64,000 nt of DNA from Lachnospiraceae bacterium MD308 (lineage in GTDB: Bacteria > Bacillota > Clostridia > Lachnospirales > Lachnospiraceae): assembly GCA_010206225.2 (NCBI GenBank), contig VIQU02000005.1, positions 2,237 through 66,236 on the forward strand, in the 5' to 3' direction. Below the pieces are notes generated by a model. That model searched no databases. It saw only the letters and a program-made list of their open reading frames with translations, and was not told the DNA's origin. Made by a program: the position numbers and the translations under genes. Shown here one piece after another: positions 7,430 through 43,529 of this stretch (position 1 is the stretch's first letter; the number at the start of each line of letters is the position of its first letter).

Positions 7430-8722
7430 CTATTCCTGTTTTTTCAATGGCACTTCTTTCATCGGGAGACGTTCTAAATAAAAAGAAGGCATATATTCAT
7501 CATTGAAATATTCTATCGGGTTCTTAATTCCCATTTCAAGGATCTGTTCTCTTATCTCCTTATAATAGATATTACAGATAAATATCGCACAATCCTCCGG
7601 CAGTTCTTTTAAACACCGCGGATTCTTAACTGTTAACCCGAAAAATTCCGTATCCCATACAGTTCTATCGTTGTCACAGGTAAACAGCGGCGGATATTTT
7701 TTACCATAACATTTCATATAATTTCTGCACATATTCCCTGCGCCGAAAAGCACTCTTGATGAATACTGCTTCAGCCGTATTTCCATTTCTATCTGCCACT
7801 TTAAAAAATCCCCTATCTTTTTGGACAAACGCAAAATTTCAGGACGGAGAAGATGAGAAAATGCCGAAATAGTATCCCTCATATCCATAATCAACTCCCC
7901 GTCAAATCCAATCTCCCTAAGTCCTCGGATCAAGTTCTGCCAATCTGTCTGCGACCGGCCCTGATACACGCTTGTAAAGGGCAGCATGGCGCTTTCCCGA
8001 TTCCCGCTGCAGTCCCGCAAAATCACAGCTTTAAGCCTGTTTCCAAGCTCTGTTATAAAATCATACATATTTTGTCCGCACAGGTTGCATATTCCAACAT
8101 CCAGACAAAATCCGAAGCGCTCTTCTCCTACTGTCTCATTCAGCCAATCAATCCAATTCCTAGCGTCCTCTGTCAGCGAACAGGCTCCGCGAACCAGATG
8201 CCCGTTAAAGTCCTTACATTGATTTTCCAGTAAAATACATACATCCTGCTCTCTTGCCAATTCTGCCAGACCAAGATAATAAGCTTTGTTATGTTTCCAT
8301 AAGTCCTCAGATGATATACCCGCAAATAAAGGGCGTATAACCAGATTCTTACACCCCGCCTGACCGCACACTTTTATACTTTCTTTTGCGAGCTGAAACA
8401 ATAATCCATTTAAATCGTCATGTTTAGTATTTCGTTCCAGATAGGGCGCATACGCTGCCGGCATATGCACTTTCTGGGCCTCACATTGCTTTAACAGGGG
8501 CAGCATTGCTTCACTCATTTTTTCAGGATTCTCGAATACTTTTAACCTGTCGGTCATTTCTTTAATTGCTTCTTTTTTTCCTATCTGCTCCAGTTCGCCG
8601 GATGTACAACACAGCGAAAAGTCTAATAAAATATTCTTGTATCCGGCTGTAAATACATTCCGAAGACCTTTATACGGATTTTTTATACCTACAATATGTG
8701 ATGGCGTACATAATAGATTCAA
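7430..8722 (-). CDS. TIM-barrel sugar isomerase/epimerase-like protein with C-terminal YGAG (Rossmann-like) module
   Basis: Paralogous to 3979-4920 (FCLDVGICNL vs FCFDTGHANL); C-terminal VLFGAGNMCRNYMKCYG. Confidence 0.7.
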   Translation of the reverse strand: MNLLCTPSHIVGIKNPYKGLRNVFTAGYKNILLDFSLCCTSGELEQIGKKEAIKEMTDRLKVFENPEKMSEAMLPLLKQCEAQKVHMPAAYAPYLERNTKHDDLNGLLFQLAKESIKVCGQAGCKNLVIRPLFAGISSEDLWKHNKAYYLGLAELAREQDVCILLENQCKDFNGHLVRGACSLTEDARNWIDWLNETVGEERFGFCLDVGICNLCGQNMYDFITELGNRLKAVILRDCSGNRESAMLPFTSVYQGRSQTDWQNLIRGLREIGFDGELIMDMRDTISAFSHLLRPEILRLSKKIGDFLKWQIEMEIRLKQYSSRVLFGAGNMCRNYMKCYGKKYPPLFTCDNDRTVWDTEFFGLTVKNPRCLKELPEDCAIFICNIYYKEIREQILEMGIKNPIEYFNDEYMPSFYLERLPMKEVPLKKQE

Positions 8723-8738
8723 TTTTTTATCCTCCAGA

Positions 8739-11057
8739 TCAACTGTTATCTCTTTTTCTGCTGATCACATCTTTAATCTCTGTCGAGCTTGTCGTCTGTG
8801 TATAGGGAAAGAAGACCATGTCCGACCCATGCTGCTGCAAAAATACCTTTTTTGCCAGCCAAACCGGATCATCGGCATAATCACTTCCCGAGAACTGAAC
8901 ATCAAAATGATACATATACCATGCATCTTCTGTATTTGGCTTATCGACTGGAATTTCAACTGCTTCGTCTACATATTTGCATGCCTCAACAATCGCAAGG
9001 CGCTCATCAAAAGGAATGTACGGACGTGTTTTTTTGCCCCGTATCACCTGTTCATCAGTCACTACGCCGACAATCAGGTAATCGCACTGCTCTTTTGCCC
9101 GCCTAAATATATTCAGATGTCCTATGTGGAACAGATCAAATACTCCTGCCACATAGCCGATATGGTATCTTTTCGGCGCGCTCTTTTGTGAACCGCCCGT
9201 CAGTTTTAACGGCCTGTCATAATCAAGCCGCGGGTCATATACGGAAATATCTTTGATCATCATCTTTTTCAACTGGAGGAGAACATCCTGAAAAAATTTA
9301 ATACAGATGAATACTTTAAAAGGTTCCTTTATCTCCCCTAAAATTCCCGGTGAAAAGATTTCTATACCTGATAACTGTTCTCCCCATCTGCTTTCATTAT
9401 TGTCAATGATTCCTGCAATATCATAATACCTGCCAAACTGTTCTATAAACTGTTCCGCATACCTCCCTGAGCCAAAAAGATAGATTTTTTTACTTCCCAA
9501 TCCTTTAAAAATATTTGTGAACAAGCGCTCGTATTCTTCCTGGCTATAATCCATCCTGTGTCTGTTAGAAATCATTGTCTGGTTATCTCTTCTGTGGAGC
9601 TTATGATAACCGGAAAGCTCTTTTTCCTTTCTAAGCTCTTCCAAAAAGGCATTGCCTTTTCTTCTCCAAAAATCCCGATACTCATATAAACTAAAATATT
9701 TCAGAATATCATCCCGGGGATATATCTTCTCCAGATCAGGATTATCCCTGTATATAAAATCCACTGTCCTGATGAAAACAGCATTTGCCGGAAAGTCCTT
9801 AATATAAAACTCCTGGTCGAAGAATACAAATCCGTTTCCTGTATGAAAACAGTTAATAGAAACCATATCAATATAGCCTCTTTTTAAGATTACACCGATA
9901 TTTTTTCTCTCTTCCTCCGTTCCAAATGCACGCCTTTGCCACTGATCAATATTCGGATCATCTTTTTTTCGTCTTTCCCAATGAGGTTCAAACTGCCTCC
10001 AGTTCACTTCCTCGTAAGCGGCATGCTCCGACGAAGATAATATAATCTTCCAAAATCTTTCAAGCTCCTGTATAAACTTTTTCCTGTCACTTCGCAGCGT
10101 TTCCCTGAAATATTCTGTAGCAATCTGCCCTTTTATATAGGGCATCACATAAGCATCGCTCTCCCGTTTTCCTTCAACTACAGGAATTTTATGGTTTCGC
10201 AAATAATCCGTATTCTGAAACAGAGCGTCTATTTTTTCTATTCCTTCCCTATATAGGGCTTTTCTGGACACTTTCACCGGATACTTTATGATTGTCGCCA
10301 ATGCTTCCTTGCGTCCCCGGTCTCCCTGAACTGTCACCTGGTCAACTCCCATGAGTTCACCATCAATGGTGCATTCGATCAAAAAAGCATTTGCCATTTG
10401 GTGGAACATATGATTTTCCAGCAATGTTTCGTACAGTCTTTCCTCTTCAAGAAATAATGTTCCCGGGTTCTCATATTGCGGAAATACTCTCACATCAATT
10501 GCTTCATTTGGCACATAATCTTCTGCAATCAGAAGCTGGGGGCGCACAAGTTCCGGCATAACCGCATAAAATCTGTATTTTTGAAAACCTGCCTTGAAAA
10601 ACATTTTTTCATATTCCGCTTTCGAATATGAGCGTCCCCCATTTATTTTCATTCTTTTGTCACTTACTTTTAAATATCCGTCAATCCCATCAAGGACGTG
10701 TCCAGAAAAAGAATCCTTATCGCCGCAAAAATAACGAATCGCCAGACGGTTTTCAGCTCCTATCAGAAGCTTTCCCAAAGGCTTAAGCAAAGGCTTAAGC
10801 GCCGCAAGCATTTCCTCAGGGTTCTCACTTCTTTCAATGATACCCGCTGCCACAATATAATCAAATTTACCGCTGATTGTATGCAGTTTCCCCATATCCG
10901 CCCTAACCGTGTCTATTCTATTTTCTTCCATCGCATCAAAAAGCACTTCGCATTCCGGCCTTCCGCCTGAAATGAAAAGTACTTTTGAACCTGTTTGAAA
11001 ATCATACCAATTGATAAGAGCCTTGGGCAAATCCTTTATGATCTCATCTGAAGCCAT
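8739..11057 (-). CDS. Multidomain: methyltransferase-like, kinase-like region, YGAG module, cytidylyltransferase
   Basis: N-term KFDYIVAAGIIERSENPEEML; middle VIKYPVKVSRKALYREGIEKI...FVFFDQEF; IYLFGSGRYAEQFIEQFG; C-term IGYVAGVFDLFHIGHLNIFRRAKEQCDYLIVGV. Confidence 0.8.
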   Translation of the reverse strand: MASDEIIKDLPKALINWYDFQTGSKVLFISGGRPECEVLFDAMEENRIDTVRADMGKLHTISGKFDYIVAAGIIERSENPEEMLAALKPLLKPLGKLLIGAENRLAIRYFCGDKDSFSGHVLDGIDGYLKVSDKRMKINGGRSYSKAEYEKMFFKAGFQKYRFYAVMPELVRPQLLIAEDYVPNEAIDVRVFPQYENPGTLFLEEERLYETLLENHMFHQMANAFLIECTIDGELMGVDQVTVQGDRGRKEALATIIKYPVKVSRKALYREGIEKIDALFQNTDYLRNHKIPVVEGKRESDAYVMPYIKGQIATEYFRETLRSDRKKFIQELERFWKIILSSSEHAAYEEVNWRQFEPHWERRKKDDPNIDQWQRRAFGTEEERKNIGVILKRGYIDMVSINCFHTGNGFVFFDQEFYIKDFPANAVFIRTVDFIYRDNPDLEKIYPRDDILKYFSLYEYRDFWRRKGNAFLEELRKEKELSGYHKLHRRDNQTMISNRHRMDYSQEEYERLFTNIFKGLGSKKIYLFGSGRYAEQFIEQFGRYYDIAGIIDNNESRWGEQLSGIEIFSPGILGEIKEPFKVFICIKFFQDVLLQLKKMMIKDISVYDPRLDYDRPLKLTGGSQKSAPKRYHIGYVAGVFDLFHIGHLNIFRRAKEQCDYLIVGVVTDEQVIRGKKTRPYIPFDERLAIVEACKYVDEAVEIPVDKPNTEDAWYMYHFDVQFSGSDYADDPVWLAKKVFLQQHGSDMVFFPYTQTTSSTEIKDVISRKRDNS

Positions 11058-11080
11058 AAAAACCCCCCTAAATATCTGCG

Positions 11081-11569
11081 TTATTTATCCAATCCATACA
11101 AGATATCTTTAAGAGATACGATCGGATACATGACTTTATTCTTTAAATTATTATATATATCGTCAAAATAATAAACTGCCGTAACGATCATAACATCTGC
11201 CTTTGGTAAATCATCCTCCGGCAAATACACTTGTAAGTCAGAATAAATAGCCGATGCATTTTTGTCAACCGCATATTTAATCTCAATATCACAGTCCTTT
11301 AATTCTTCCAATAAACATTTCCCCACATGGCTCAATCCATAAACGGCAACAGACTTATAACCCCTTTTTTCTAAGTATTCTTTAATATGTCTGCCTTCCT
11401 GCTTTGTTGTCATCCATTTGTTCATAAGCAAAAATAAGTCAAGATTTTTATCTGTTAATTCTCTGCAGTTATCTAATGCCCTGCCTGAAATCCTTTCAAT
11501 TACCATTCCCCCGGCGACGGCACCAATAACCACGCCTGACAGCACTGAAAAAAAATTATTTTTCTTCAT
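11081..11569 (-). CDS. Membrane-anchored stand-alone YGAG module protein
   Basis: N-terminal hydrophobic segment SVLSGVVIGAVAGGMVI then VAVYGLSHVGKCLLEEL...YAVDKNA...MIVTAVYYFDDI. Confidence 0.65.
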   Translation of the reverse strand: MKKNNFFSVLSGVVIGAVAGGMVIERISGRALDNCRELTDKNLDLFLLMNKWMTTKQEGRHIKEYLEKRGYKSVAVYGLSHVGKCLLEELKDCDIEIKYAVDKNASAIYSDLQVYLPEDDLPKADVMIVTAVYYFDDIYNNLKNKVMYPIVSLKDILYGLDK

Positions 11570-11599
11570 ATGATCCTCCGGTTTACCTCTTCAAAATTC

Positions 11600-12952: not shown

Positions 12953-12958
12953 TTCCTC

Positions 12959-14245
12959 TTATATATAATTGAACTTTTCTAAAAAATCTGTCATCTGTAA
13001 ATATTCCTGAATACCTAATCTTTCCATTCCTTCCTGCATATCAAGATATGCTTTTGAACCGGGCGTTACTGCCAGCAGATACAGTGAACCAGGATAACAA
13101 TCACGGGCTTTTTCTATCCTTACCACTCTTTTATCTGCCATGAAACCATCCTTTGGCTCATCAGATACCGCAAAACATCTGATCTTATCATACAATCCTT
13201 CATTATAAAGTATCCGCATTGCAATATCACCCTGCTTACCTGCCCCGTAGATAATAATTCCTTCCGATTCCAGAATCTGCGTCTTCACTCTTCTCTTCTT
13301 TTCTATCAGACTGCCGCAATACTCTTCTGGCGCTCTCAAAAGCTCCCGAATCCAGTTATCTATATATCTGTTGTATTTGATATAAGCCTTATACTTCCCA
13401 TAATCCTCCCGGATCTGCCGGGTAAACTCATACTTATACTTATCGTCAACCCTGAAAAATGTCCCTTTTAACCTGACAAGTCGCAAAGTATAGACATACG
13501 GCAGCAAATATTCCTGTTTTCTTGCTTTTATGATCTCCTCAAGGTATTCATATTCTCTTGTCATGGCCATCATTTTTGACCTGCTTTTTACCGAAGCCTC
13601 AGGATTATCCTGCCTGTAATAATAAAAAGCCTCATTTAACCACATCGCCCTTTTGGCATAGAAACATGTCTGCATCCAAAATCCATTATCCTGATATGAA
13701 GCCCCGGGGCTTTCATTAAAAGAAATATCATTTTGTACCAGAAAATCTTTTTTATAAATCCCTGTCCAGATATTCATAAAAAAATCGAAATAGATATTTC
13801 TTTCATCCTCTCCAAGCACCCGGTCATACCAGGCATTTAAATTATTATCGTGTACCCGTCTTTGGTAATCCAGTTTTTCAAACCAATAGTAAGCGTCTGA
13901 TTTAACAAAATCCAGATTATGATCCACAGCCGCCTTGTATAACGTCTCATACATTTCAGGAGCTATCCTGTCGTCACTCTCGACAATCCCGATATATTGT
14001 CCCGACGCAAGTCTTAATCCCGCATTCATTGCCGCTCCATAACCCTGATTCAATTTATGCAACGCTTTCATACGCCCATCCTCTGCCGCATACTGATCAA
14101 TAATTTCACCTGAGGAATCAGTGGAACCATCGTCAACACAAATAATCTCTATGTCTTTCATGCTTTGAGCCACAATGCTGTCCAGACACCGGCGCAAATA
14201 TCGCTCCATATTATAGACAGGCACAATAATCGATATTTTCGGCAT
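12959..14245 (-). CDS. Family 2 glycosyltransferase with C-terminal YGAG module
   Basis: KISIIVPVYNMERYLRRCLDSI...VDDGSTDSSGEI; C-terminal IIIYGAGKQGDIAMRILYNEG. Confidence 0.88.
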   Translation of the reverse strand: MPKISIIVPVYNMERYLRRCLDSIVAQSMKDIEIICVDDGSTDSSGEIIDQYAAEDGRMKALHKLNQGYGAAMNAGLRLASGQYIGIVESDDRIAPEMYETLYKAAVDHNLDFVKSDAYYWFEKLDYQRRVHDNNLNAWYDRVLGEDERNIYFDFFMNIWTGIYKKDFLVQNDISFNESPGASYQDNGFWMQTCFYAKRAMWLNEAFYYYRQDNPEASVKSRSKMMAMTREYEYLEEIIKARKQEYLLPYVYTLRLVRLKGTFFRVDDKYKYEFTRQIREDYGKYKAYIKYNRYIDNWIRELLRAPEEYCGSLIEKKRRVKTQILESEGIIIYGAGKQGDIAMRILYNEGLYDKIRCFAVSDEPKDGFMADKRVVRIEKARDCYPGSLYLLAVTPGSKAYLDMQEGMERLGIQEYLQMTDFLEKFNYI

Positions 14246-14264
14246 TCTTCTTCTCCTCTTATAT

Positions 14265-15464
14265 TTAACAGATCCAATATGCTTCTATGTTATGTGCTAA
14301 TGTACGCTTCTCTTCGGGCGGCCATTCTTCCCATCCTTTTCCGTAAAGGTTATCCAGATATTCCTGATACCCCTGCGGAATATTCACCATAATATCTTCA
14401 AAAGGCATTCGCAAGGTTTCTTCATAAACGGATCGTGTTGTACAATCCTTTTCATAATATCCTGTGCCTAAAACACCCACATACTCCGAATCGTCAAATC
14501 TGTATGTATCAAAAGACGGTTGCTCCTCATCACAGATCTTTCTGAATTTATTCATATCCCCGCTGCACTTAAAAAACACCTCACGCCTTCTTGCATTTAT
14601 CTTTTCATATCTTCTAATATATGCTATTCTTTCTTTTTCATCATCGGGTAGTCCAACTATCGGTAAGATCTCTACATTTACCCCGACAAAATGATTATAA
14701 AAGGCATATTTCTCTATGAGCATTGTGCGTTTATCTGCCAGACGCGCAAATTTATAATGTCCCCATACATCATTCTCATCATCAACGATCTGACACATGA
14801 TTTTATCATTCTCCTGAAACAGCTCCAAAAACCTTTCATAGTCAACATCCGGCATAAAGACATCAATGTCATCGTCCCACGGTATAAAACCTTTATGACG
14901 AACCGTCCCCAGCATGGAACCTCCGCTCAGCCAGTACCGAAGATTATTCTTTTCACAAAACCGGTCAAAACAGGAAAGAATCTCTTTTTCTACCACTTTT
15001 AATTCGTTCAATGACATTCTCTTAAGCTTTTCAGCCTTTTTCCTGTAGTCAGCATTTTCCCAATCATACAGACAATATATCCCCTCTTTGGAAATATGTG
15101 TGCCATTAACGATCTTGTCTATTTCATCAGAACAATCTTCGGATGCATAAAGAATGATCCAATTTTCGCCTGTCTCCCTTCTCCACTCATCCACGGAATA
15201 AATTCTGATATAGGAATCTGTCTTATTAAAATAGTGAGAAAGCGCATACTTAACGCTTCTCCAAACTCGTTCTCTTCTTTCCTCTTTTTCCGAAATATAA
15301 CATTCAACCCTGTATCCTCGGTTCTCCAGCAACGTCCTGACGGCAAAAGAATGCTCGTCTAAACCCAAAATTGCCAGTTTGTCGGAGCGCTTTATCTTTC
15401 CCTTTTCTATCAAAGACTCCAGCCAATCATCCATCTGCTTTAAAATGCTGTAAAAATATTCCAT
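14265..15464 (-). CDS. LicD-family phosphotransferase with N-terminal Rossmann-like module
   Basis: CEKNNLRYWLSGGSMLGTVRHKGFIPWDDDIDVFMPDVDYERF; N-term LAILGLDEHSFAVRTLLENRGY. Confidence 0.85.
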   Translation of the reverse strand: MEYFYSILKQMDDWLESLIEKGKIKRSDKLAILGLDEHSFAVRTLLENRGYRVECYISEKEERRERVWRSVKYALSHYFNKTDSYIRIYSVDEWRRETGENWIILYASEDCSDEIDKIVNGTHISKEGIYCLYDWENADYRKKAEKLKRMSLNELKVVEKEILSCFDRFCEKNNLRYWLSGGSMLGTVRHKGFIPWDDDIDVFMPDVDYERFLELFQENDKIMCQIVDDENDVWGHYKFARLADKRTMLIEKYAFYNHFVGVNVEILPIVGLPDDEKERIAYIRRYEKINARRREVFFKCSGDMNKFRKICDEEQPSFDTYRFDDSEYVGVLGTGYYEKDCTTRSVYEETLRMPFEDIMVNIPQGYQEYLDNLYGKGWEEWPPEEKRTLAHNIEAYWIC

Positions 15465-15493
15465 TTCTCCGAAATCCCCCCTCTATATGCATT

Positions 15494-16399: not shown

Positions 16400-16478
16400 A
16401 CCTTCTCCCTACTCAACCTTGAAACTCATACTTCGCTGCCCAACAGGAAATAACTCTTCTTTGGACCGTGAATTTTCT

Positions 16479-18110
16479 TTATCCGTTTTTCATATATCGG
16501 ATGCCGGACTGCTCTATAACTTCAGATAATGATATAACCGGCACAGTTGTTTTCCTTTCCAACTTCTTTTTAATAGATTCTGCATCATACACCGGCGTAA
16601 TAATGATACAGTCCGCTTCCGGTATTTCTTCGTCTCCCGTTATAACAGGAAAATCACTATTCATATTAATTGCGTTTCTATCAATCACACAAACAATGCC
16701 AATACCACTGTCCTTTATATCTTCTAACAGATGATGAGTCATCCTCCCCATACCATAAATAATAATATTTCTTATCTCCTGTTCTTCAAAATATTTGACT
16801 GCGCTCCCGTTTTTTTCATGTAAAAGCATCCATTTTTCCAATAACCGGTAATAAGAAATATACATCTCAATGTTCATTTTTTTTGTTTCCAGCGCTTCCA
16901 TGCTTTTCTGTTTTTCCAAATCGAAGTCTGATAATTTCTTTTTAGGTTTCACAACAATTTTAGATAGTTCTTCCATCCATACGTTCCCTATATGCTCAGC
17001 CGAAAAATATTCTGCTCTTTTTCGCCCCTCTTCTGCCATTTCACATCTCAGTTCATCATTCTTAAGCATGCGAATAATTTCATCCGCCATCAGTTTTTCT
17101 TCTTTTGTGAAATGATCCGTATAATACTCTTTAATATTGGGAACTAGTATTCCGCCTTCTCCCTGTATCGGAACTGTTATATCTTTTTGACGGGTCAAAA
17201 TATTAAGTTCTTCTCTTATACCTCCGGGGCAATCACACGCTACTACAGGCACACCGGCACTAAATGCCTCTAAAACAGCACATGGCATTGCCTCCAAACG
17301 GGATGTCAGGGCAAATACTTTTGCTCTCTCAAGATAATCCTGAACATTGACAACACTTCCAGGCATATCAACATCTTCAGCTAATCCAAGCTCTAATATA
17401 AGCTTTTCTAGTCTGTTCCTTAATTCTCCCTCGCCTAATATTATCAGCTTACTATCCGAACAATTTTCTTTCACCATCTTAAATACTCGTATAATATGCC
17501 ATTGCCGCTTTATACTGTGCATTCTTCCTATCGCGATAATGATATTTTCCTTTTTATCGTCCCCCTCAACAGCCATGGGATGAACGGGATTATATATAGT
17601 TCTTGTAATATGATTCCTGTCGCCGTAATGCTCTATCCAATCTCTTTTGCAATATTCCGATGGAAACGTAATTAAATCTGCAAATTGATATAACTTCTTA
17701 AAAGTATGGTCAGACCACTCAACGGATTGGCAGCATTTCTTATATTCAGATGTTACATTATGCGTTGTAAGAATAACTTTCTCATTCCCTTTTGACATTA
17801 TATTAAGATAGTTTGCAAACTGCATAAAACTAATTGCAATATCAATCTGATACTGCCTCTTTAAACACTCCAATTCTTCAATTTTATTCTCCATTGCACT
17901 CTTTAAAGATGTCTTCCCGTTCAAATATTTTAATGAAAAAGAAAAATCGGCCAGTGTTCCTTTAAATTCATACATTATTCTGCATGACAAATCTGTAAAT
18001 ATAATTACATCGTATCCCTGCTCCTCAAAAAACATACTCAGATCAGCCGCGCATCTCTCTGCACCGCCGGCCTGCAATGAGGTGACAATAATTCCTATTG
18101 TATGATCCAT
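16479..18110 (-). CDS. Family 4-type glycosyltransferase with C-terminal YGAG-type module
   Basis: IGIIVTSLQAGGAERCAADL; VFALTSRLEAMPCAVLEAFSAGVPVVACDCPGGIREEL; IIIYGMGRMTHHLLEDIKD. Confidence 0.87.
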   Translation of the reverse strand: MDHTIGIIVTSLQAGGAERCAADLSMFFEEQGYDVIIFTDLSCRIMYEFKGTLADFSFSLKYLNGKTSLKSAMENKIEELECLKRQYQIDIAISFMQFANYLNIMSKGNEKVILTTHNVTSEYKKCCQSVEWSDHTFKKLYQFADLITFPSEYCKRDWIEHYGDRNHITRTIYNPVHPMAVEGDDKKENIIIAIGRMHSIKRQWHIIRVFKMVKENCSDSKLIILGEGELRNRLEKLILELGLAEDVDMPGSVVNVQDYLERAKVFALTSRLEAMPCAVLEAFSAGVPVVACDCPGGIREELNILTRQKDITVPIQGEGGILVPNIKEYYTDHFTKEEKLMADEIIRMLKNDELRCEMAEEGRKRAEYFSAEHIGNVWMEELSKIVVKPKKKLSDFDLEKQKSMEALETKKMNIEMYISYYRLLEKWMLLHEKNGSAVKYFEEQEIRNIIIYGMGRMTHHLLEDIKDSGIGIVCVIDRNAINMNSDFPVITGDEEIPEADCIIITPVYDAESIKKKLERKTTVPVISLSEVIEQSGIRYMKNG

Positions 18111-18131
18111 ACCTTTACATATCTCCCATAG

Positions 18132-19583
18132 CTATCTGATAATTTGAAAAATGTCTTTCCAGAATTCGAGATGAGACTCGATCCTGCTCTTAGGGTATAC
18201 CACATCATGTGCTGCGTTCCCCATGATACTCAGACGTTCCCGGTGTTTTGACAGATATTCAATCCGCTCTGCCATTGCATGGTAATCACCTATCGGGACG
18301 ATATAGCCGTTCTCATCATCTACGATATCTTCTCTTACACCCGAGGTTGCCGTGACAACCGGAACCGCCCCGTTTCCCATCGCCTCGATAATACTATGGC
18401 TCCTGCCTTCGTAATCTGCAATATTAATACATACATCCTGCTCCTTCCAAAAAGAAGGAATCTCTGAGCGGTCTATTTCCCCTAAAAGCCGCACTTTCTT
18501 TTCCAAATGATTGGCTCTTATAAACTCATCCAACTCTTGGCGTGCCACACCGTCTCCCGCAATATCCATCACAAAGCAAATCTTTCTTTCCACAAGAACT
18601 TGTACTAACTTTATCAGCAAATCCATTCTCTTCTGAGAATACTCCACTCTTCCTGCATAACCGACACGAAGCGGAGATGACTTATCTTCTGTATATTTAC
18701 GCTTAAGTGTTTCTTCACACTCAAACGGAACGCACATAGACTGTACCTTCCCTGACTCTATTCCCATTTCGATCAAAGCTTTCATAATATCCCTGCTCAC
18801 ACCGATAAAAACATCCGGAATCTCTTTATAATCCATATATGCATTATAAATACACTCACTGCCGCCTCTGATTGTTGTAATAATCTTAACCATATCCGGA
18901 TAGCAGCACTTTATCAGATACGGCGCCAGCATTGTATTATCGGGCTGCGTTGTAACTATTTTAAATGGAAGCTTATCTATTAGGGCTTCAATTACATTCA
19001 ATACAGAGTCCGCAGAAAACATTTTCTGCTCATCAATGTATATCATTCTATCCTGCAAAAGCAAAGGAACTTCATAGTCCCCTCGTGTGGCGACAACATA
19101 AATATTATCTGCCCCGTCTTTCATCAAAGCCTCGCAAATATCCTTTGTCCATGCCTCAATACCGCCCAATGAAAATCCATTATATGAAACAAACAATATA
19201 TTTTCCTTTTCACCATGATTGATTTTTACGTTTTTATATAGATACTGCTTTATTTTTTCATCTGCTTTTAAGGCTTCCAGACGCATTTCATTATAGTGTA
19301 CTTCCTTTTTCAGATCATAATTCCATATCTGCTTCAAATCTCTTCTTATATCATTGGAAACTTTTTCGTCTGCAACAGTGATGCATAAATCCACGTCTTT
19401 AAAATCATTTATTCTCTCAGGAGGTTCAACTTTGTATCCTCCCACACGCATTCCCCATTTGCTTGAATCAGTATCTAGAATGGCTGCAATTTTTATATTT
19501 CTGCATTGTTCTAATAATTTACACAATGTTTTACAGCGTTTTCCTGCGCCGTAAAAAATCAGTTTCCGCACGTCCCTTTCCAT
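18132..19583 (-). CDS. Family 4-type glycosyltransferase with N-terminal YGAG module
   Basis: KLIFYGAGKRCKTLCKLLEQ; YSQKRMDLLIKLV...VCINIADYEGRSHSIIEAMGNGAVPVVTATSG. Start placed at internal Met to avoid overlap. Confidence 0.85.
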   Translation of the reverse strand: MERDVRKLIFYGAGKRCKTLCKLLEQCRNIKIAAILDTDSSKWGMRVGGYKVEPPERINDFKDVDLCITVADEKVSNDIRRDLKQIWNYDLKKEVHYNEMRLEALKADEKIKQYLYKNVKINHGEKENILFVSYNGFSLGGIEAWTKDICEALMKDGADNIYVVATRGDYEVPLLLQDRMIYIDEQKMFSADSVLNVIEALIDKLPFKIVTTQPDNTMLAPYLIKCCYPDMVKIITTIRGGSECIYNAYMDYKEIPDVFIGVSRDIMKALIEMGIESGKVQSMCVPFECEETLKRKYTEDKSSPLRVGYAGRVEYSQKRMDLLIKLVQVLVERKICFVMDIAGDGVARQELDEFIRANHLEKKVRLLGEIDRSEIPSFWKEQDVCINIADYEGRSHSIIEAMGNGAVPVVTATSGVREDIVDDENGYIVPIGDYHAMAERIEYLSKHRERLSIMGNAAHDVVYPKSRIESHLEFWKDIFQIIR

Positions 19584-19588
19584 CCTTC

Positions 19589-33868: not shown

Positions 33869-35083
33869 TTATATATCCGCATTTAAAAATATATAATCAC
33901 GAAATCCGTGACGCTCCAATGTCTGTTCTATTACTGGATTATATTTTTTATTAGCCGCTACTATGACAAGCGTCTCTTCGCTGTATTCCTGTAATTCGGC
34001 AATTTCATAAACATGATGCCCAAAAAGCGACTTTGGGTTATTCTCCAATTTTGTTACTGCAATTCCCATAATATCCGCCTGCATTCTCGAAATTACCTGC
34101 AGGACGTCATAGGTAAGATAACCTGCGCCGTACAGTAATATCCTTTTCGCCCGATTTATCATATCCGCCTGCTCCGAAGACAAACGAATATCATAAGACA
34201 TGTCCGATATTAATGTTTTCACCAAATGCCCGGAAAAATCATCTTCAAAATACTGCTTGATTTCTTCGCATTCCTCATAAGACAACGTATTGATACCCGC
34301 TTTGATCTTCGTGTATTGATAATCCAGAAAGAATTTCCACCCTTTCATATTCCCGTCACGCGCAAGTCTCTTTAAAATTTCAATATACTGGTAAATCTGT
34401 CCCAGCAAAATTTTGTTTTTCGCGGTGTCTGCATTGGTCACTGACTCGGGATTATAAGAGTAGTGATAGCATACGCCGTCCATTATGAGAACTTTCTTTG
34501 CACACATTAATGCATGTATGATAAAATCTCCGCCCTCTCCGATTTTTAGCCTAGAAAATTTTATATTATTCCTTTTCAGAAAATCCCGCTCAACAACTGC
34601 GCACCATGCGTAGTAAAAAAATTCTCTGTTAAACAAAAATTGTTCTGCCAATACTCTTCCTTCATAAACACCGGAATATTTCTTTTCAATTCCTTTTCTG
34701 GCCGACTGCTGCCTGCTGTCGTTTTCAAATTTAAAAAAGCACATCTGGGCATTATTACCGCCCGCATATTGATATAAACGGGAAAGAGATCCCGGCAATA
34801 AATAATCATCCGCATCAACAAATTGTATATACCTTCCCGATGCCAGCTCCATGCCTTTATTTCTTGAATAACCAACGCCTTTATTGTTTTCATTCCTTAT
34901 TGCCGTAACATTGAAATACCTTTTCTCATATTTATCTAAAATATCTGCGGTTCTGTCCGTAGATCCATCATCAATGCAAATCACTTCCACTTCCACGCCG
35001 CTTTGGCTAAGTATGCTGTCCATGCACCTTTCCAGATACTTTTCACCGTTGTATATCGGAATGATTACGCTTATATCCGCCAT
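33869..35083 (-). CDS. Family 2 glycosyltransferase with C-terminal YGAG module
   Basis: ISVIIPIYNGEKYLERCMDSIL...IDDGSTDRTADIL; ILLYGAGYLTYDVLQVISR. Confidence 0.88.
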   Translation of the reverse strand: MADISVIIPIYNGEKYLERCMDSILSQSGVEVEVICIDDGSTDRTADILDKYEKRYFNVTAIRNENNKGVGYSRNKGMELASGRYIQFVDADDYLLPGSLSRLYQYAGGNNAQMCFFKFENDSRQQSARKGIEKKYSGVYEGRVLAEQFLFNREFFYYAWCAVVERDFLKRNNIKFSRLKIGEGGDFIIHALMCAKKVLIMDGVCYHYSYNPESVTNADTAKNKILLGQIYQYIEILKRLARDGNMKGWKFFLDYQYTKIKAGINTLSYEECEEIKQYFEDDFSGHLVKTLISDMSYDIRLSSEQADMINRAKRILLYGAGYLTYDVLQVISRMQADIMGIAVTKLENNPKSLFGHHVYEIAELQEYSEETLVIVAANKKYNPVIEQTLERHGFRDYIFLNADI

Positions 35084-35093
35084 ATTTTCTCCT

Positions 35094-35687: not shown

Positions 35688-38068
35688 GATATATTCCCTA
35701 CTTTTTTTATGGTGTCAGCTAACCTTTCAAAGCCTTTCTCTATAGCAATAAAATCTTCAAAAAGGGCGGTGTCTGGCTGATCTGTCACACGTTCTATACA
35801 CTCAAAGACATTTTCCTCTGTACATTTCTCAATATACGCATTGTTCTTTAGCCAGTTCTTTGCTCCAGAACACTTACCGCTTATGTTATCCAAAAACACA
35901 CATGGTGTTTTAGCCAATGCACAAAAAATCATACCGTGCAGCCTGTCTGTCAAGACTACTTTCGCCGAAGCTATGTTTGATATCATCTCATCCAGATACA
36001 TCTCTCTGTTATTCATGGTAACCTCCCCTTCAATAACCGTCGATATAGATTTTAAGGTTAATGAAAGTTCTTTTGCGATCAACTCTGACTGCAAATCCAC
36101 ATATGCTGTCCGTTCCCTGTCCTCTCTCAGACATGCAAGCAATGTCGGTGTTCTTTTTTTATCCAATTGCGCATATTTATGTCTCAGGAAAAATGCCATG
36201 TCCGGCGCTAATAATTTATTTATATTATCCCCGCTTATTTCATCCAGCCGATCCGCCGATTCTTTATCCCTAACTGCAAAAATCAGTTTCTTATGCGTGT
36301 TTAATATATTTCTAAGTCTCTGTTTCTCCTTTTCCCCAAAATAATTATCTTCATAAAATAACGTCTGCGGAAATACTACTAATACATTACCGCGAAAAGC
36401 TGACGCAATATAACAAAACAAGTCATTCATCCGAAGCCACAGAGTTCCTATATTACCGCCTCCGGTAACCGCGATGATATCATCGCTTTTTACCGCGCTC
36501 TTTATACGGAAATTCTCTTTCATATATTCCGAACACGATATTTCTATGATGTCATATTGGGGAAAATACTCCGACAAAAACAATCTTTCTCCCAAAGCAA
36601 TGGCATGATCTCCTAAATTAGGATAATCAGGGCTGTTAAAAAGAATAACAGCCGGCTTTCTGTTTTTCTCATATAATTTTCCATAATCGTCCCATTTTCC
36701 CAGATGACGATAATTATGATCGGATAATTTTTGAGACATCACTTCTGCCATCTCTGGTTTCAGCCATGCCTTTCCTTTTTTATCTGTACGGTTTCGCATA
36801 TCTAGGTAGCTGCCGCATAAAATATCCGGAACACATCCCCAAGCAAGGAAAGCATGATTATTAAAGCAGTACGAAACTTTGCAGTTATGGTCAACAGGCC
36901 TGACCGGAAACGCTTTCATTTCCCGGTCAAAAATATTTCCGATAACTTCACTGTGGTAGCAAGGTCTTACATTTCCTGAGTTCAAATCTATCAGATAGCT
37001 CCAATTTCCTGCATAGCATTGATATTGCTGCATATTTTTCCCGTACCATTTGCTCTTTAGGTCAAACATCTTAGAATCAAACTGTCCCCAAATCGACCGA
37101 TAATCTTCTATAGAATACTTTGATAACAAATCAAATCCTGCTTTATTTGAATCTCGGGTAAAAGAAACGTGAGGCAATGCCCCGTTCGTTTTCTTCAGCG
37201 CCAGATCTTTCATCTCATCAATGTATTTTACCGAGCCGTCTCCGGGAGTAATTTCTAAAGTGTAAGAGCAACGGCTCCCGCTTATTTCATCAATATTATC
37301 CCAGAATCTTTCTAAAACGCCCAGCCTTTTTAATTCTATATAATGAAATGATATTTTAAAGAACATTCTGCCAAGCAGCTTGTCCGGCAATGATAATATC
37401 TCCTTAATCTTAGAGGTTACCGTACCGTTTGTCACAACTGAGACGTAATGGCCCTCGTCCAGCAAAGCATATATTAATTCTACAATATTCTGAGCCAGCA
37501 AAGTCTCGCCCCTTGCGCATAAATTAATAAAGCAAATGCCTCCAAGCCGTTCTTTTGAAAGCCCTTCCCTAATTTCCTTTACACTGTGTTCCTCTGATAA
37601 TAAATTTCCTTCTTTAAATTCTTCTTTTCTCCACACATAGCAATATTCGCAGTGGAAATTACACGTTGTCGTTCCGCTTATATTAATATCGATAAACCGC
37701 TGAATACTATGATTATGGATCTTTTCCGGCCACTGAATGAAATATTTAAAATCCCGTTCTTCCTTCTGCATAAGAATATCCTTCGCATGGCAGAAAGGAA
37801 CTTCCCACTCTTTCAGCTTTTCTCCTATAGAAGCAACCGCATATTCATCATCAACAGTGATAATTACATACGGATTCTGTAATTTGCGGATTTCATTTAC
37901 GTCTATACATATCCTCTCATCTCCATACACTCTCCTGCCAACATATTTATTGCTGCTGTCCGCAAAGTATAAAATATCTGTATAGATATCCAGTCTTTCA
38001 ATATATGGATAAAAGCTTTTTCCCATGCCATATGCAATAACTGTATATGTCTCTAACACGCTTTTCAC
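35684..38068 (-). CDS. Fusion: N-terminal YGAG-type module + radical SAM + C-terminal polysaccharide pyruvyl transferase
   Basis: TVIAYGMGKSFYPYIERLDI; TTTCNFHCEYCYVW; VILFNSPDYPNLGDHAIALGERLFL...VTGGGNIG...VVLTDRLHGMIFCALAKTPCVFLDN. GTG start. Confidence 0.82.
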   Translation of the reverse strand: MKSVLETYTVIAYGMGKSFYPYIERLDIYTDILYFADSSNKYVGRRVYGDERICIDVNEIRKLQNPYVIITVDDEYAVASIGEKLKEWEVPFCHAKDILMQKEERDFKYFIQWPEKIHNHSIQRFIDINISGTTTCNFHCEYCYVWRKEEFKEGNLLSEEHSVKEIREGLSKERLGGICFINLCARGETLLAQNIVELIYALLDEGHYVSVVTNGTVTSKIKEILSLPDKLLGRMFFKISFHYIELKRLGVLERFWDNIDEISGSRCSYTLEITPGDGSVKYIDEMKDLALKKTNGALPHVSFTRDSNKAGFDLLSKYSIEDYRSIWGQFDSKMFDLKSKWYGKNMQQYQCYAGNWSYLIDLNSGNVRPCYHSEVIGNIFDREMKAFPVRPVDHNCKVSYCFNNHAFLAWGCVPDILCGSYLDMRNRTDKKGKAWLKPEMAEVMSQKLSDHNYRHLGKWDDYGKLYEKNRKPAVILFNSPDYPNLGDHAIALGERLFLSEYFPQYDIIEISCSEYMKENFRIKSAVKSDDIIAVTGGGNIGTLWLRMNDLFCYIASAFRGNVLVVFPQTLFYEDNYFGEKEKQRLRNILNTHKKLIFAVRDKESADRLDEISGDNINKLLAPDMAFFLRHKYAQLDKKRTPTLLACLREDRERTAYVDLQSELIAKELSLTLKSISTVIEGEVTMNNREMYLDEMISNIASAKVVLTDRLHGMIFCALAKTPCVFLDNISGKCSGAKNWLKNNAYIEKCTEENVFECIERVTDQPDTALFEDFIAIEKGFERLADTIKKVGNIS

Positions 38069-38092
38069 CTTTCCTTCAGTATAAGTGTATGG

Positions 38093-39280
38093 TTATATCT
38101 TTACTCTGCATATCTTCTGCCTGTCTGTCCCCAGGCTAACAAGCATTTCCTCTATATCATCCGCAACCGCCGCATTTATAACTGCCAGAATAATCTTATC
38201 AAAGGAATGCTTTTTAATTTGTTCCGGCGAAATTACCGCGCCGCCTTTTACTTTATCCGCCCACGCTGCTATCTCACAATATTCTTCATTTTCCAAAAAT
38301 GATTTTATGGCCTTCCCGAATCTTCCCGCTCCGTAAAGGATGACCCTGTCGCCTTTTTTTATTTCCCTGAATGGAAAAGACTCTTTCGTCTCTGTCCGAA
38401 ACAGATGCCCCGGGTCGGATATACATGCAAAAAAGACCGTTACCTGATATAATTGACCCTTTATATTTTTAATCCTGTCCTCATTTCTGGCGGCACATTC
38501 TGAAAAAATACTGCGCATAATCCCGCCGCTTTTTGTATGCGCCGGCGCTCCCATGAGCGAATCGCCCCGCATTACATAATGATAAAAACAGTCTCCTGAC
38601 ACTGATATATTTTCAGATTCAAAGATATAAGGATATACAACATCCGCATCTTCACCGATCTTCGCCTCATTCGGAACTCGCATCTGATATTTTTCCAACA
38701 TACTTTTTCTGAATATTTTATTTGTTATATGCATGTTGATCCGGGAATCGAAAAAATGGTCTGTATTAATAATATGTCCTTTTAAATCATCCAGCGATTT
38801 GCCCTCATATCTGCCTGCGGGTATTTTTTCTTTCTCGGACACAGAATGATTTTCATAGTCACGTATCAGCCCGCTGGTCACTATATCGGAATGATTGCAT
38901 AACATCAATTCCATCATGCGCTCATACATGTTCTCTTCTATCCAGTCATCGCTGTCAACATACGCTATATACTGACCCGATGCTGTCTTTAATCCGGCTT
39001 TTCTGGCGCTGACGAGGCCGCCGTTTTTTTTATGGAATACTTGAATCCTGATGTCTTTTCGGCTCCATTCGTCACAGATCTCTCCGCAATGATCCGTAGA
39101 ACCATCATCTACAAGAATAATCTCCAAATTCGTATAAGTCTGCCCCGCAATGCTTCTTATGCATCTATCAAGATATTTCTCTACGTTGTAAACCGGGACA
39201 ATGACTGATAACGCAGGCTGCTTTTGCTTCATATGATCCGGCATAATGGCATTCCCCTCCATAAAGTTAATGATCGACAT
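38093..39280 (-). CDS. Family 2 glycosyltransferase with C-terminal YGAG module
   Basis: LSVIVPVYNVEKYLDRCIRSI...VDDGSTDHCGEI; VILYGAGRFGKAIKSFLEN. Start uncertain. Confidence 0.87.
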   Translation of the reverse strand: MSIINFMEGNAIMPDHMKQKQPALSVIVPVYNVEKYLDRCIRSIAGQTYTNLEIILVDDGSTDHCGEICDEWSRKDIRIQVFHKKNGGLVSARKAGLKTASGQYIAYVDSDDWIEENMYERMMELMLCNHSDIVTSGLIRDYENHSVSEKEKIPAGRYEGKSLDDLKGHIINTDHFFDSRINMHITNKIFRKSMLEKYQMRVPNEAKIGEDADVVYPYIFESENISVSGDCFYHYVMRGDSLMGAPAHTKSGGIMRSIFSECAARNEDRIKNIKGQLYQVTVFFACISDPGHLFRTETKESFPFREIKKGDRVILYGAGRFGKAIKSFLENEEYCEIAAWADKVKGGAVISPEQIKKHSFDKIILAVINAAVADDIEEMLVSLGTDRQKICRVKI

Positions 39281-39293
39281 ACATAAATTAAAC

Positions 39294-40781
39294 CTATAAT
39301 CTATTAATGTATTTTATCTGTTCCGCAATATCCCCATCGCCAATAATATCCCAAACAGGTATTCTTTTTCCATATATACCATATTCAGTTAATGTCTCAT
39401 ACACTCTTTTTATGCCTGTGACAGGCGTCACTATAACAGAAACTTCCTTACCTTCCAGCCCCTTTACTTCCTTTATGTTATACACTGGAATTCCTTCAAA
39501 TTTTCCGCTTTCTTTATATGCATCTACAATACATAAGGGCGAAACATTCCGTAAATTCATTTCTCTCACAAGCGCGACAGTTAAATTCCCCATTCCATAA
39601 ATTATCAGATTGTTTAACTTAGAAACTTCTTCTATAATTTTATCCGGATTATCTAATATCCGGGTCAGAATCTTCCATTTTATATCTGACAATTCAAAGG
39701 GAACCGTTCTTGACCCGACAGCATATAGCACTGTTTCAGGCGATAGGACACTGTAATGTCTTATAAATAACTCATATTGCGGATTTAATTCTAAAATATA
39801 TTTGGGGATTTCTATAATATCTTCTTTCTTGTGATAAATACAAATTGCCAGATCCGGCTTGTCCCTCATAATAATTTCTTTTGCGCCCCTTAATGCCTTT
39901 AATTCCGCCCCCTCGATATCCATCTTAATAAAAGTAACTCGTTCTTCCTTATGCCTGAAAAATTCATCAATAGAAGTAAGGTTAACAGTTATGTCCCCGT
40001 CCTCAGCCAAATGCGATGCTGTGGTTTTTCCTCCGGCAAAATTTAGTCTTTCATCCTTTTCCCATAAACCTTTATTGATTAATTCTATCCTTTTATCATC
40101 ATTGAAAAGATTTTTCTTGTTCTCTAACATCATGTTGTAATTTGAACAATCCGGTTCAAACGCATAAACTTTTTCAAAATTCGGGTACATATTAATAAAA
40201 TGACCTGTGTCACGCAAATCAAAGCTTCCGCCGTCAATAAATACTTCTCTTCCAGAATGCTTCCTAATGATTCTTGGCTCAAAATATTGCGTTCTATAAA
40301 TTTCTTTTTCATGTGAAAAATCAAAGATACGCTCTTTCTCCACTCCAAGTCTCTCTAATTGTTCTTTCATTTCTTTTCCAGATTTTCTACTGGCTAATAC
40401 AAATAACGCAGTCGTATTCTGACAGCAGGCCTCTTCTACCGACAATACCGGGAGTCCTTCGCAAAGCGTACCTTGCAGCTCTTTTTTATTATCACAATAA
40501 GCAATCAAGTCCCCCACTTTATATCTTTCACTGAAATTTTTATATATTTTTCCCAGATGTCCGGCGCCAAACATAATAATTGGCTGGTCTTCAGAATAAT
40601 GGTCTCTGTTTTTTATAAGCGAATAAAGGCTATGTCCTCCATTATCATTCCTATGAATCGCCAATGAATATAAACTTTCCAAATTCCTATGGCCTAAATT
40701 TAATTCCAGCCGCTTCATAAATATAAATCTGGATTCTTCATCCTGTAACCTGTCATAAACTTTCTGTAAATCTGACCACAT
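39294..40781 (-). CDS. FkbM-family methyltransferase flanked by YGAG modules at both ends
   Basis: PIIMFGAGHLGKIYKNF; EVFIDGGSFDLRDTGHFINMYPNFEKVYAFEPD; FIKMDIEGAELKALRGA; LIIYGMGNLTVALVREMN. Start placed at internal Met with RBS. Confidence 0.85.
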   Translation of the reverse strand: MWSDLQKVYDRLQDEESRFIFMKRLELNLGHRNLESLYSLAIHRNDNGGHSLYSLIKNRDHYSEDQPIIMFGAGHLGKIYKNFSERYKVGDLIAYCDNKKELQGTLCEGLPVLSVEEACCQNTTALFVLASRKSGKEMKEQLERLGVEKERIFDFSHEKEIYRTQYFEPRIIRKHSGREVFIDGGSFDLRDTGHFINMYPNFEKVYAFEPDCSNYNMMLENKKNLFNDDKRIELINKGLWEKDERLNFAGGKTTASHLAEDGDITVNLTSIDEFFRHKEERVTFIKMDIEGAELKALRGAKEIIMRDKPDLAICIYHKKEDIIEIPKYILELNPQYELFIRHYSVLSPETVLYAVGSRTVPFELSDIKWKILTRILDNPDKIIEEVSKLNNLIIYGMGNLTVALVREMNLRNVSPLCIVDAYKESGKFEGIPVYNIKEVKGLEGKEVSVIVTPVTGIKRVYETLTEYGIYGKRIPVWDIIGDGDIAEQIKYINRL

Positions 40782-40828
40782 AATAATTCTTCTCCCTTGA
40801 TACATTTTATTTGCTTTTTATTCATTTA

Positions 40829-42067
40829 TCAGCATATCCGGCATAATGGCATTTCCCCCAAAATATTTAATACCTCTTCTCTTCCGTCAATTAAACATGG
40901 CCACACAAACATATGGCTATCCGGCTCGATTTCGTTTATTGAATAAATCGTATATCCTAATAATGTATTAACTCCTGCTTTTTTCTTTGAAACAAGAAGA
41001 CCTGTTATACGGACATTATGGCTGCACAACGCAACGATCGCTTTTATTGCTTCCGCTCCGGCTCCGTAAATATATATTCTTTCCCCGTGAAGAACTAAAT
41101 CTTTTATCTTATTAATTACCGTAAAAGTATAATAATCAACACTGCGGACAATGTATTCATCGTGAAATGCATCGATGATACGATCGGCTTTATGATCTGA
41201 TAACCGCTTTAATGCGCTCAATTCATCTTCAAATTGTTCCACCGTATACCCGTCCGGGTAGTTAACCCTGAATAACCTTCTCACAGAAGCTATATAAACT
41301 GTATGCAGATATTCGGAAAACCTTCTTTTTGAATAAACGTCAAACTTCGTAAAATAATTGACTGTATCGATAATATATCGGGCAGCTATCTTTTTGTCCT
41401 GCCGATATTTTTCATTCCAGGATCCCTGGGAAAAATCCCTGTATACACTCCATGCTCTGTTGATAAAATACAGTTTCCCCCGGCAAGCCATACATGTCCG
41501 CCAAACCACATCGCCTGTGGCTCCTTTAAAGTCCGGCAATTCTTTAAATAAATCCGTACGGCAAAACAGAGAAGCCGTCGGATACCATCCCTTTGACGCA
41601 CATATAATATCTTTGTCTTCTATATATCCCGACGGATGGTTCTGCACATTTAATCTCAACGTATCCTTTTCTTCGCCATATACTAACGCATTATGATAAC
41701 ATAAAGAAATTTCCTGATCTGATTCCATTAATTCATACTGCTTCTGCAGCTTACCGCTGTAAATCCAGAAATCATCACCTTCACAGTAAGCCATATACTT
41801 TCCCTTTGCGTGAAGAACCATCTTCCGGGCGATACTTACTCCTTTTGAATACTGATTTTCCTTTTCCAGAAACAAACGGATTTTGTCCGAATATTGTTTT
41901 TCGTATTTTTTGAGGATTTCTGTTGTACCGTCTGTCGAAGCGTCGTCATGAACCAGAATTTCATATGTAAAATTTGTTTCCTGCGTTACAAATCCTTCAA
42001 GAGCATCTTTTATATAATCCCTCTGATTATATGTAAGACATATAATTGATACGGCTATTTCATTCAT
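40829..42067 (-). CDS. Family 2 glycosyltransferase with C-terminal YGAG module
   Basis: VSIICLTYNQRDYIKDALEGFV...HDDASTDGTTEIL; IYIYGAGAEAIKAIVALC. Confidence 0.87.
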   Translation of the reverse strand: MNEIAVSIICLTYNQRDYIKDALEGFVTQETNFTYEILVHDDASTDGTTEILKKYEKQYSDKIRLFLEKENQYSKGVSIARKMVLHAKGKYMAYCEGDDFWIYSGKLQKQYELMESDQEISLCYHNALVYGEEKDTLRLNVQNHPSGYIEDKDIICASKGWYPTASLFCRTDLFKELPDFKGATGDVVWRTCMACRGKLYFINRAWSVYRDFSQGSWNEKYRQDKKIAARYIIDTVNYFTKFDVYSKRRFSEYLHTVYIASVRRLFRVNYPDGYTVEQFEDELSALKRLSDHKADRIIDAFHDEYIVRSVDYYTFTVINKIKDLVLHGERIYIYGAGAEAIKAIVALCSHNVRITGLLVSKKKAGVNTLLGYTIYSINEIEPDSHMFVWPCLIDGREEVLNILGEMPLCRIC

Positions 42068-42107
42068 TCCATTGATTCCCTTCTGAAATAAAATATCACA
42101 AATTGAA

Positions 42108-43529
42108 TCACAATCTATTAATGTATTTTAATCGTTCCGCGGTTTCTCTATCGCCAATGATATCCCAGATAGGTATCCTCTTCCCATGTATGCCATATTT
42201 GTTTAACGTTTCATATAATTCCTGCACATCTGCGACAGGCGTTACTATGACGGAAACTTCTTTTTCTTCCAACCCCTTAACTTCCTTTATATTGTACACT
42301 GGAATTCCTTCAAAATTACCGCTTTTCTTATACGCATCTATGATACATAAAGGCGGCATATTCCGTAAATTCATCTCTCTGACAAGCGCAGCGGTTAAAT
42401 TGCCCATTCCATAAATTACCGGGTTATTCATTTCAGATAGCTTTTGGATTATCTGATTCGGATTGTTTATTATTTCCGTTAATATCCTCCATTTTAAATC
42501 CGACAATTCATAAGGGACAGTCCGCATTCCATACGAATTTTCCCCGCCGCTTTGATCATGTACTTTCGGATGGGAAAGATATGGATGCTTCATGGTCTCT
42601 TTATATTCCTGATGCCAGGGATGCTTCGGATTCCTTATATTCATAAAGAACTCCTCCATTTCATTCTGGCCGCCCCAGTTATCATATGGCCGAAGCCGAA
42701 CAAAATCCGCGCCGAATTCCTCGATACACCTATACGCAAACTGAGGGAGAGTCCTGAAGTTTTCTGCCTGTACGACCGTCGCTATTGTAAGGAAATCTAT
42801 AATCCCTTTCTCGCGAAGTTTTTTTACATACCTGAGGTTATTTTCTATCTTCTCAATCGGATAATTCACTCCCGAAAGATGTTGATACACAGATTCTTCA
42901 AAACTCATGATTGTAATAGCCACATTTAATTTATATTTCCCAAGATTTTCAATTTGCTTCCAATGTTCTTCATCAAATAAAGAGCCGTTTGTTTCCAACA
43001 TAACTGAACATTCCGCTGCCGGCGCTTTTGGTCTCCATTCAGATAACAATTTTAAGATTCTTTTACTTACAAATAATTCTCCCAATCCATTTGCAGAAAT
43101 CCTTTTTACATATGGCATTGCCTGACGTACCCGATCTTCTATGATGTCATAATTTTGTTCCAATTCCTCTTTTGTTTTTTCTGCGTTCATGCGGCATATC
43201 GTACAGCTCTTACATCTATAATTACAAATATTTTCAAATGCCAAATATAATTCTTCCGGATACTGCGGAAGATTTCCCAACTCTGTTTGAAGATCATTAA
43301 TTTCACCTGTCATTAAATATGGACATTCGTCAACACGGCATTGTGAATAGTCCTGCCTTAATAAACATTGTCTTAATCTTTTTGCTTTTTCTCCATGGAA
43401 AACCTCAGGCAAAGAATTGTCAATCAAATTTCCAACGCAGCCATCTTTTATCCAACTACATAATCTGACCGCTCCTTCAGCATTATACACTTGCACAAAG
43501 TCTCTGCCTCTTTTACACATCCGTTCCAT
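42108..43529 (-). CDS. Radical SAM protein (N-terminal SPASM-like Cys region) with C-terminal YGAG-type module
   Basis: LAFENICNYRCKSCTICRM (CxxxCxxC); C-terminal PVIYGMGNLTAALVREMNLRN nearly identical to that of 39294-40781. RBS ggaggtaag before 43529. Confidence 0.82.
   Translation of the reverse strand: MERMCKRGRDFVQVYNAEGAVRLCSWIKDGCVGNLIDNSLPEVFHGEKAKRLRQCLLRQDYSQCRVDECPYLMTGEINDLQTELGNLPQYPEELYLAFENICNYRCKSCTICRMNAEKTKEELEQNYDIIEDRVRQAMPYVKRISANGLGELFVSKRILKLLSEWRPKAPAAECSVMLETNGSLFDEEHWKQIENLGKYKLNVAITIMSFEESVYQHLSGVNYPIEKIENNLRYVKKLREKGIIDFLTIATVVQAENFRTLPQFAYRCIEEFGADFVRLRPYDNWGGQNEMEEFFMNIRNPKHPWHQEYKETMKHPYLSHPKVHDQSGGENSYGMRTVPYELSDLKWRILTEIINNPNQIIQKLSEMNNPVIYGMGNLTAALVREMNLRNMPPLCIIDAYKKSGNFEGIPVYNIKEVKGLEEKEVSVIVTPVADVQELYETLNKYGIHGKRIPIWDIIGDRETAERLKYINRL

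Follow-up and report, generated by a model that had tools for sequence, protein, structure and literature searches.

A small Rossmann-type module, probably a shared sensor or clamp, on glycan enzymes of Lachnospiraceae bacterium MD308 and of similar islands in related gut bacteria

Why would many glycan enzymes of one locus carry the same small domain? In the stretch of Lachnospiraceae bacterium MD308 DNA analysed here (64,000 nucleotides, hereafter the window), a flagellin ORF at the left edge (18-1562) is followed by approximately 45 kb of glycan genes on the minus strand, and the initial annotation had proposed that about 16-17 proteins of this island share one module. We assembled a set of 19 segments, the 18 claimed ones plus that of the NeuD-like protein 32058 (proteins are named by the first coordinate of their ORF), and scored each segment with an HMM built from the other 18, using a search space of 37 proteins. 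Seventeen of the 18 claimed segments were regained at their own place, in 16 proteins, with E-values of 5e-6 to 7e-22 (7430, 8739, 11081, 12959, 16479, 18132, 19589, 20883, 24213, 25721, 33869, 35684, 38093, 39294 with two copies, 40829, and 42108), and they share 15-29% identity with the first member of the set. Window proteins outside the set, including the Rossmann enzymes UGDH 5011, SDR 6323, and Gfo/Idh 47693, gave a best E-value of 0.056. The window segments are one family, far above chance, and are distributed as follows (coordinates, strand, feature, and evidence):

7508..7768, minus: module, C-terminal, on TIM-barrel protein 7430-8722 (AP_endonuc_2); HMM; the paralogue 3979-4995 has no module
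9222..9500, minus: module, internal, in 8739-11057 (cytidylyltransferase at the C-terminus); HMM
11081..11569, minus: stand-alone protein with hydrophobic N-terminal segment, helix, and module (module 11084-11365); HMM, AlphaFold2
12971..13273, minus: module, C-terminal, on GT2 12959-14245; V-S type, no strand-2 Asp; HMM
15048..15392, minus: possible divergent module, N-terminal, on LicD 14265-15464; hhalign, missed by leave-one-out
16503..16781, minus: module with upstream helix (stand-alone subtype), C-terminal, on GT4 16479-18110; HMM
19314..19577, minus: module, N-terminal, on GT4 18132-19652; HMM
19622..19903, minus: module, C-terminal, on GT2 19589-20836; V-T type; HMM
20883..21365, minus: second stand-alone protein with hydrophobic N-terminal segment (module 20898-21167); HMM
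25401..25664, minus: module, N-terminal, on GT-B-like protein 24213-25664; HMM
25724..26005, minus: module, C-terminal, on GT2 25721-27064; HMM
32439..32714, minus: PglD_N-type domain, related yet distinct, of NeuD-like acyltransferase 32058-32714; hhalign
33872..34156, minus: module, C-terminal, on GT2 33869-35083; V-T type; HMM
37754..38056, minus: module, N-terminal, on radical SAM + pyruvyl transferase 35684-38068; HMM
38096..38359, minus: module, C-terminal, on GT2 38093-39280; HMM
39336..39623, minus: module, C-terminal, on FkbM methyltransferase 39294-40805; HMM; 78% identical to the 42108 copy
40311..40595, minus: second module of FkbM 39294-40805, N-terminal part (residues 71-165); HMM
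40832..41092, minus: module, C-terminal, on GT2 40829-42067; V-S type; HMM
42147..42437, minus: module, C-terminal, on radical SAM protein 42108-43550; HMM

The N-terminus of LicD 14265, also claimed as a member, was not matched by the leave-one-out HMM, but hhalign aligned it to the module over the full module length with a probability of 42.8% (decoy families at most 5.5%), and by this alignment it is possibly a divergent copy. The NeuD 32058 segment scored weakly in the leave-one-out search (E-value 0.0015), and hhalign gave its N-terminal lobe 97.1% with PglD_N vs 78.7% with the modules; on these profiles we consider it a PglD_N domain, a cousin of the modules but distinct from them. FkbM 39294 had been described as bearing a module at both ends, and it does contain two copies, but the first is not at the very end of the protein. 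A search of the whole MD308 genome returned the 17 window places and about a dozen others; almost all of these lie either on C1 or on contig C135, where they form a second cluster (61-87 kb). This second module-rich island (C135:61-87 kb; L041, L042) has GT32, FkbM, MptE-like, methyltransferase, and GT2 hosts.

Several proteins of the window are composite in other respects. The protein 8739-11057 joins a methyltransferase-like start, a middle part without assignment, the module, and the C-terminal cytidylyltransferase, and 35684-38068 is a single chain of N-terminal module, radical SAM domain, and polysaccharide pyruvyl transferase. Within the glycan island, 30467-32041 fuses an ABC-transporter ATPase to an LpxD-like hexapeptide acyltransferase part and has as neighbours a permease (27156), a substrate-binding lipoprotein (27960), and an AMP-forming ligase (28933). 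A Gfo/Idh/MocA oxidoreductase is fused to a cytidylyltransferase in 47693-49027, and the 841-residue protein 44405-46930 has no Pfam match at E≤1.

Modules were found in N-terminal, C-terminal, internal, doubled, and stand-alone positions. Pfam catalytic domains (GT2, FkbM, radical SAM, pyruvyl transferase, cytidylyltransferase, and TIM barrel) adjoin the modules and never overlap them, and both catalytic lobes are present beside the module in the GT4 hosts. The TIM-barrel proteins 3979 and 7430 are paralogues with a 310-residue alignment, and a module follows only in 7430. The idea that the segments are catalytic halves of the domains beside them was ruled out because the GT4 hosts have both lobes and module-free paralogues exist (3979), and profile comparison joined the segments in one family and not in unrelated folds. 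The FkbM methyltransferase 39294 and the radical SAM protein 42108 end in modules that share 78% identity over 95 residues, and outside the module the two proteins are unrelated, save for approximately 25 residues leading into it. The dS of this pair is approximately 1.4, which indicates that the copy event is old and that both copies were kept. The dN/dS values of the modules (0.06-0.26) are close to those of the catalytic parts; modules are under purifying selection, as are their catalytic partners. Module trees partly group by host class (59 changes vs 99 in shuffles), and the number of swaps is uncertain in this poorly resolved tree (14 of 152 inner branches starred). Altogether, these comparisons indicate that the module is one accessory domain of approximately 90 residues with a Rossmann-type fold, separable from its hosts and moved between unrelated enzymes, in line with the separable, non-catalytic-looking module described initially.

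We compared the module with known families by profile-profile alignment. With module profile A4, hhalign gave 98.7% for Rex, 97.9% for PglD_N, and 96.6% for PF13727 domains, and at most 5.5% for decoys (SDR, which reached 5.5%, UGDH, Gfo/Idh, methyltransferase, GT4, and GT2), the decoy sets being small (2-41 sequences). Against the PDB, the module profile matched 3nkl (E-value 1e-11), Rex 2vt2 (1e-9), 2g6t (4e-7), VioB (1e-4), and, weakly, WbaP (1e-3). By profile comparison, the module belongs to the Rex / PglD_N / PF13727 group, and the likeness to the N-terminal lobe of NeuD/PglD noticed at the outset is borne out at the level of the family. No Pfam or NCBIfam model reaches its cut-off on the modules of the MD308 genome, and we found no description of the module in the literature searched, in line with the initial annotation.

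To define its spread, a broader profile built from 74 modules was searched in 150 genomes of the family; Rex and CapD-like proteins should by themselves give one or two matches per genome, and genomes with five or more copies were called module-rich. Thirty-one of the 150 were module-rich, with maxima of about 29 copies in MD308 itself and 28 in another genome. With the island-derived profile, more than 20 copies were confined to the genus among 41 relatives. Outside the family, module counts were lower and islands were present nonetheless. From fetched islands we collected 211 modules in 208 hosts of at least 18 catalytic classes, including GT2, GT4, GT8, GT32, RgpF, WbsX, DUF4422, MptE-like, TagF, FkbM and other methyltransferases, radical SAM, HAD, NKWYS, and capsule synthesis proteins (hosts other than those scanned with Pfam received their class labels through BLAST). 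The module is C-terminal on GT2 (45 of 49), RgpF, WbsX, and GT8 hosts, and N-terminal on GT4, GT32, radical SAM, and most FkbM hosts. Among the islands searched, flagellin adjoins the window island, two same-genus counterparts, and one other locus. A flagellin-specific module was rejected because flagellin stands next to just these four loci, and the other module islands look like capsule or rhamnan loci, which argues that flagellin is not the common factor. The module is thus not a feature of a single island, as first described.

Two versions had been reported to stand alone behind a hydrophobic N-terminal segment, and both were confirmed (11081 and 20883). AlphaFold2 predicted a confident Rossmann-type core for 11081 (pLDDT >90 over most of the module), preceded by a long helix and, at the N-terminus, by another helix predicted with low confidence. 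A Foldseek search with this model returned generic Rossmann and methyltransferase matches only, none at E≤0.001. Close relatives of 11081 are 98% and 79% identical to it. The N-terminus of stand-alone copies is Gly-rich and hydrophobic, and 13 of 14 show a small-xxx-Gly pattern there; residues invariant in the 14 aligned proteins include the loop glycines G78 and G83 and the strand-2 Asp (D102). The helix-plus-module subtype occurs either alone with the hydrophobic N-terminus or C-terminally on GT4, GT2, and WbsX enzymes. A stand-alone copy was detected in 10 of the 31 module-rich family genomes (8 with a complete anchor) vs none of the 119 others (Fisher 4e-8) and was not detected in the remaining 21; seven further genomes have helix-plus-module enzyme fusions without any stand-alone copy. 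An anchored copy as universal hub was rejected on these counts (approximately a third of module-rich genomes have one), and the idea of a single membrane hub built on it is weakened.

The residues expected at a nucleotide site are widely conserved. Among the 211 modules, the first, second, and third glycines of the loop are present in 205, 175, and 134, respectively, and the strand-2 Asp in 171, including 22 of 22 stand-alone copies; approximately 18% of modules have no strand-2 Asp. A second type, in which V-S/T replaces this Asp, was found in 8 of 8 RgpF hosts (Fisher 5e-7) and in about a quarter of GT2 hosts; the RgpF hosts of this type are in loci L035, L053, L055, L060, L063, L067, and L070, hinting at a different ligand for the RgpF-linked modules. 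Because the types split by host class, more than one ligand is suggested, and there are likely two ligand types, one for the Asp modules of most hosts and one for the V-S/T modules. This conservation resembles that of a ligand-binding domain, and since purifying selection has kept the glycine loop and the strand-2 Asp, a nucleotide-ligand role appears better supported than pure docking. In related proteins, the domain of the PglD-like Pcryo_0637 holds UDP with Asp40/Asp41 (PMC8040287), and the WbaP domain is stabilised by UMP, UDP, and UTP, full-length WbaP being inhibited by UMP with an IC50 of 4.1 uM (PMC10942596). The PF13727-type domain forms most of the WbaP dimer interface (PMC10942596), and in EpsZ, a myxobacterial WbaP homologue, a partner protein that promotes the dimer was modelled on the same domain (PMC12802240). 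In PglD, a second Asp binds uracil; at this position the modules mostly have Asn, Ser, Lys, or Thr, so UDP binding is not directly implied.

By analogy with the Pcryo_0637, WbaP, and EpsZ domains, we propose that the modules bind a nucleotide without catalysis and regulate the enzyme that carries them, most likely by dimerising in response to the ligand, an explanation that we favour at about even probability. The ligand of each module would be a nucleotide (a uridine nucleotide or another NDP or NMP) or the dinucleotide NAD(H), and control through dimerisation has likewise been proposed for the domain of WbaP. Numerous polysaccharide enzymes encoded at a single locus would then respond to the same nucleotide state. 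The anchored stand-alone copies may be membrane-bound partners for some modules, and docking to them could add to ligand control in some islands. The donors of the hosts are unlike (NDP-sugars, SAM, and PEP), so that their chemistry requires no single shared ligand.

That many enzymes of one island bear a module could also mean that modules bind one another, as well as the anchored copies, and so assemble the enzymes into one membrane-bound complex, nucleotide binding being a relic. The helix-plus-module unit, found both with an anchor and fused to GT4, GT2, and WbsX, the restriction of stand-alone copies to module-rich genomes, and the dimerisation of WbaP via the related domain (PMC10942596) are consistent with this. 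However, most module-rich genomes gave no stand-alone copy, the fused subtype also occurs without one, and the positions most strongly conserved are the nucleotide-site residues, a pattern that docking by itself leaves unexplained; we regard docking as the main role as rather unlikely. Alternatively, the module might grip a nucleotide-linked donor or acceptor by its nucleotide for use by the adjoining active site, like the N-domain of PglD. Pcryo_0637 binds its UDP-sugar on this domain (PMC8040287), a related domain is found on C-methyltransferases acting on nucleotide sugars (4rv9; PF08484), and the Asp and V types track host class. Against such a grip, GT2 and GT4 catalytic domains already bind their own donor, module placement varies, and the window enzymes whose substrates are free nucleotide sugars (5011, 6323, 22087, and 32711) have no module, which makes it unlikely. 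A prediction of a GT2 with its module (pLDDT 65, pTM 0.52) was too weak for placing the module against the active site.

We also considered a structural extension inherited with each enzyme family and lacking a common role. The class-specific position of the module and the partial clustering of trees by host class agree with this reading, but near-identical copies on unrelated enzymes (39294 C-terminus and 42108), module-free paralogues, and conserved stand-alone copies speak against it, and we consider it very unlikely. Altogether, the module is probably a shared sensor or clamp on glycan enzymes in MD308 and in similar islands of related gut bacteria. A fuller version, in which the module, present on most transferases of a locus, is a general means of controlling surface-glycan synthesis in gut Lachnospiraceae and pairs both with itself and with the anchored copy, so that one nucleotide signal switches the whole line and holds it together, seems quite unlikely as a whole. 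If the modules do sense one ligand or pair, surface glycan synthesis and flagellin decoration would come under a common enzyme-level signal in abundant gut bacteria, and because the modules are small and separable the idea is open to test.

Nucleotide sensing by WbaP is a recent finding and a first function for a non-catalytic Rossmann domain on a polysaccharide enzyme; a relative of the WbaP domain is found here on at least 18 enzyme classes, in up to approximately 29 copies per genome, and in a conserved form that stands alone behind an anchor. The WbaP/PglF accessory domain, PF13727 (CoA_binding_3), matches the modules by profile (hhalign E-value 7e-10, 20 domains) and is absent among the Pfam families listed as matching single modules. 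The PF13727 relative 3nkl, the best PDB match, has the IYGAG loop and the DxxxK..G.....P pattern in common with the modules. Like them, PF13727 is non-catalytic and used on polysaccharide enzymes, but it lies behind a four-helix membrane bundle in two enzyme classes (WbaP-type phosphoglycosyl transferases and PglF/CapD-type dehydratases; PDB 8t53), whereas the modules have many host classes, many copies per locus, and stand-alone forms with one hydrophobic segment.

The C-terminal NAD(H)-binding domain of Rex has the top profile-profile score and shares the GxGxxG loop, the strand-2 Asp, and the D-x-(N/D)-x-x-K-x-G pattern; unlike Rex, the modules are on glycan enzymes, and no host or stand-alone copy has a winged-helix DNA-binding domain. 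PglD_N (PF17836; NeuD/PglD/VioB acyltransferases) is likewise a small Rossmann-like domain on sugar enzymes, but its known members are fused only to a beta-helix acyltransferase and have an Asp-Asp pair where the modules have Asp followed mostly by Asn, Ser, Lys, Thr, or Arg. Its model gave no module match in the MD308 genome at E 0.001; window modules scored 20.2 and 14.8 bits or less vs a cut-off of 23.4, which a few modules elsewhere exceed. PF22674 (C2185-like_N), the solved N-terminal domain of PDB 2g6t from Clostridium acetobutylicum, is matched by the module profile at the E-value given above, and its model matches 15 of 74 modules at E≤0.1 (best 6.7e-10) and none in MD308 at 0.01, control genomes being likewise silent; no paper on it was found in the literature searched. 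The PF08484 C-terminal domain of C-methyltransferases (4rv9), an accessory Rossmann-like domain of enzymes acting on nucleotide sugars, weakly matches 10 of 74 modules (best E-value 3.5e-4) and is limited to one enzyme class. Compared with these systems, the fold is not new; what is new is the distribution of the module and the unnamed family that it forms.
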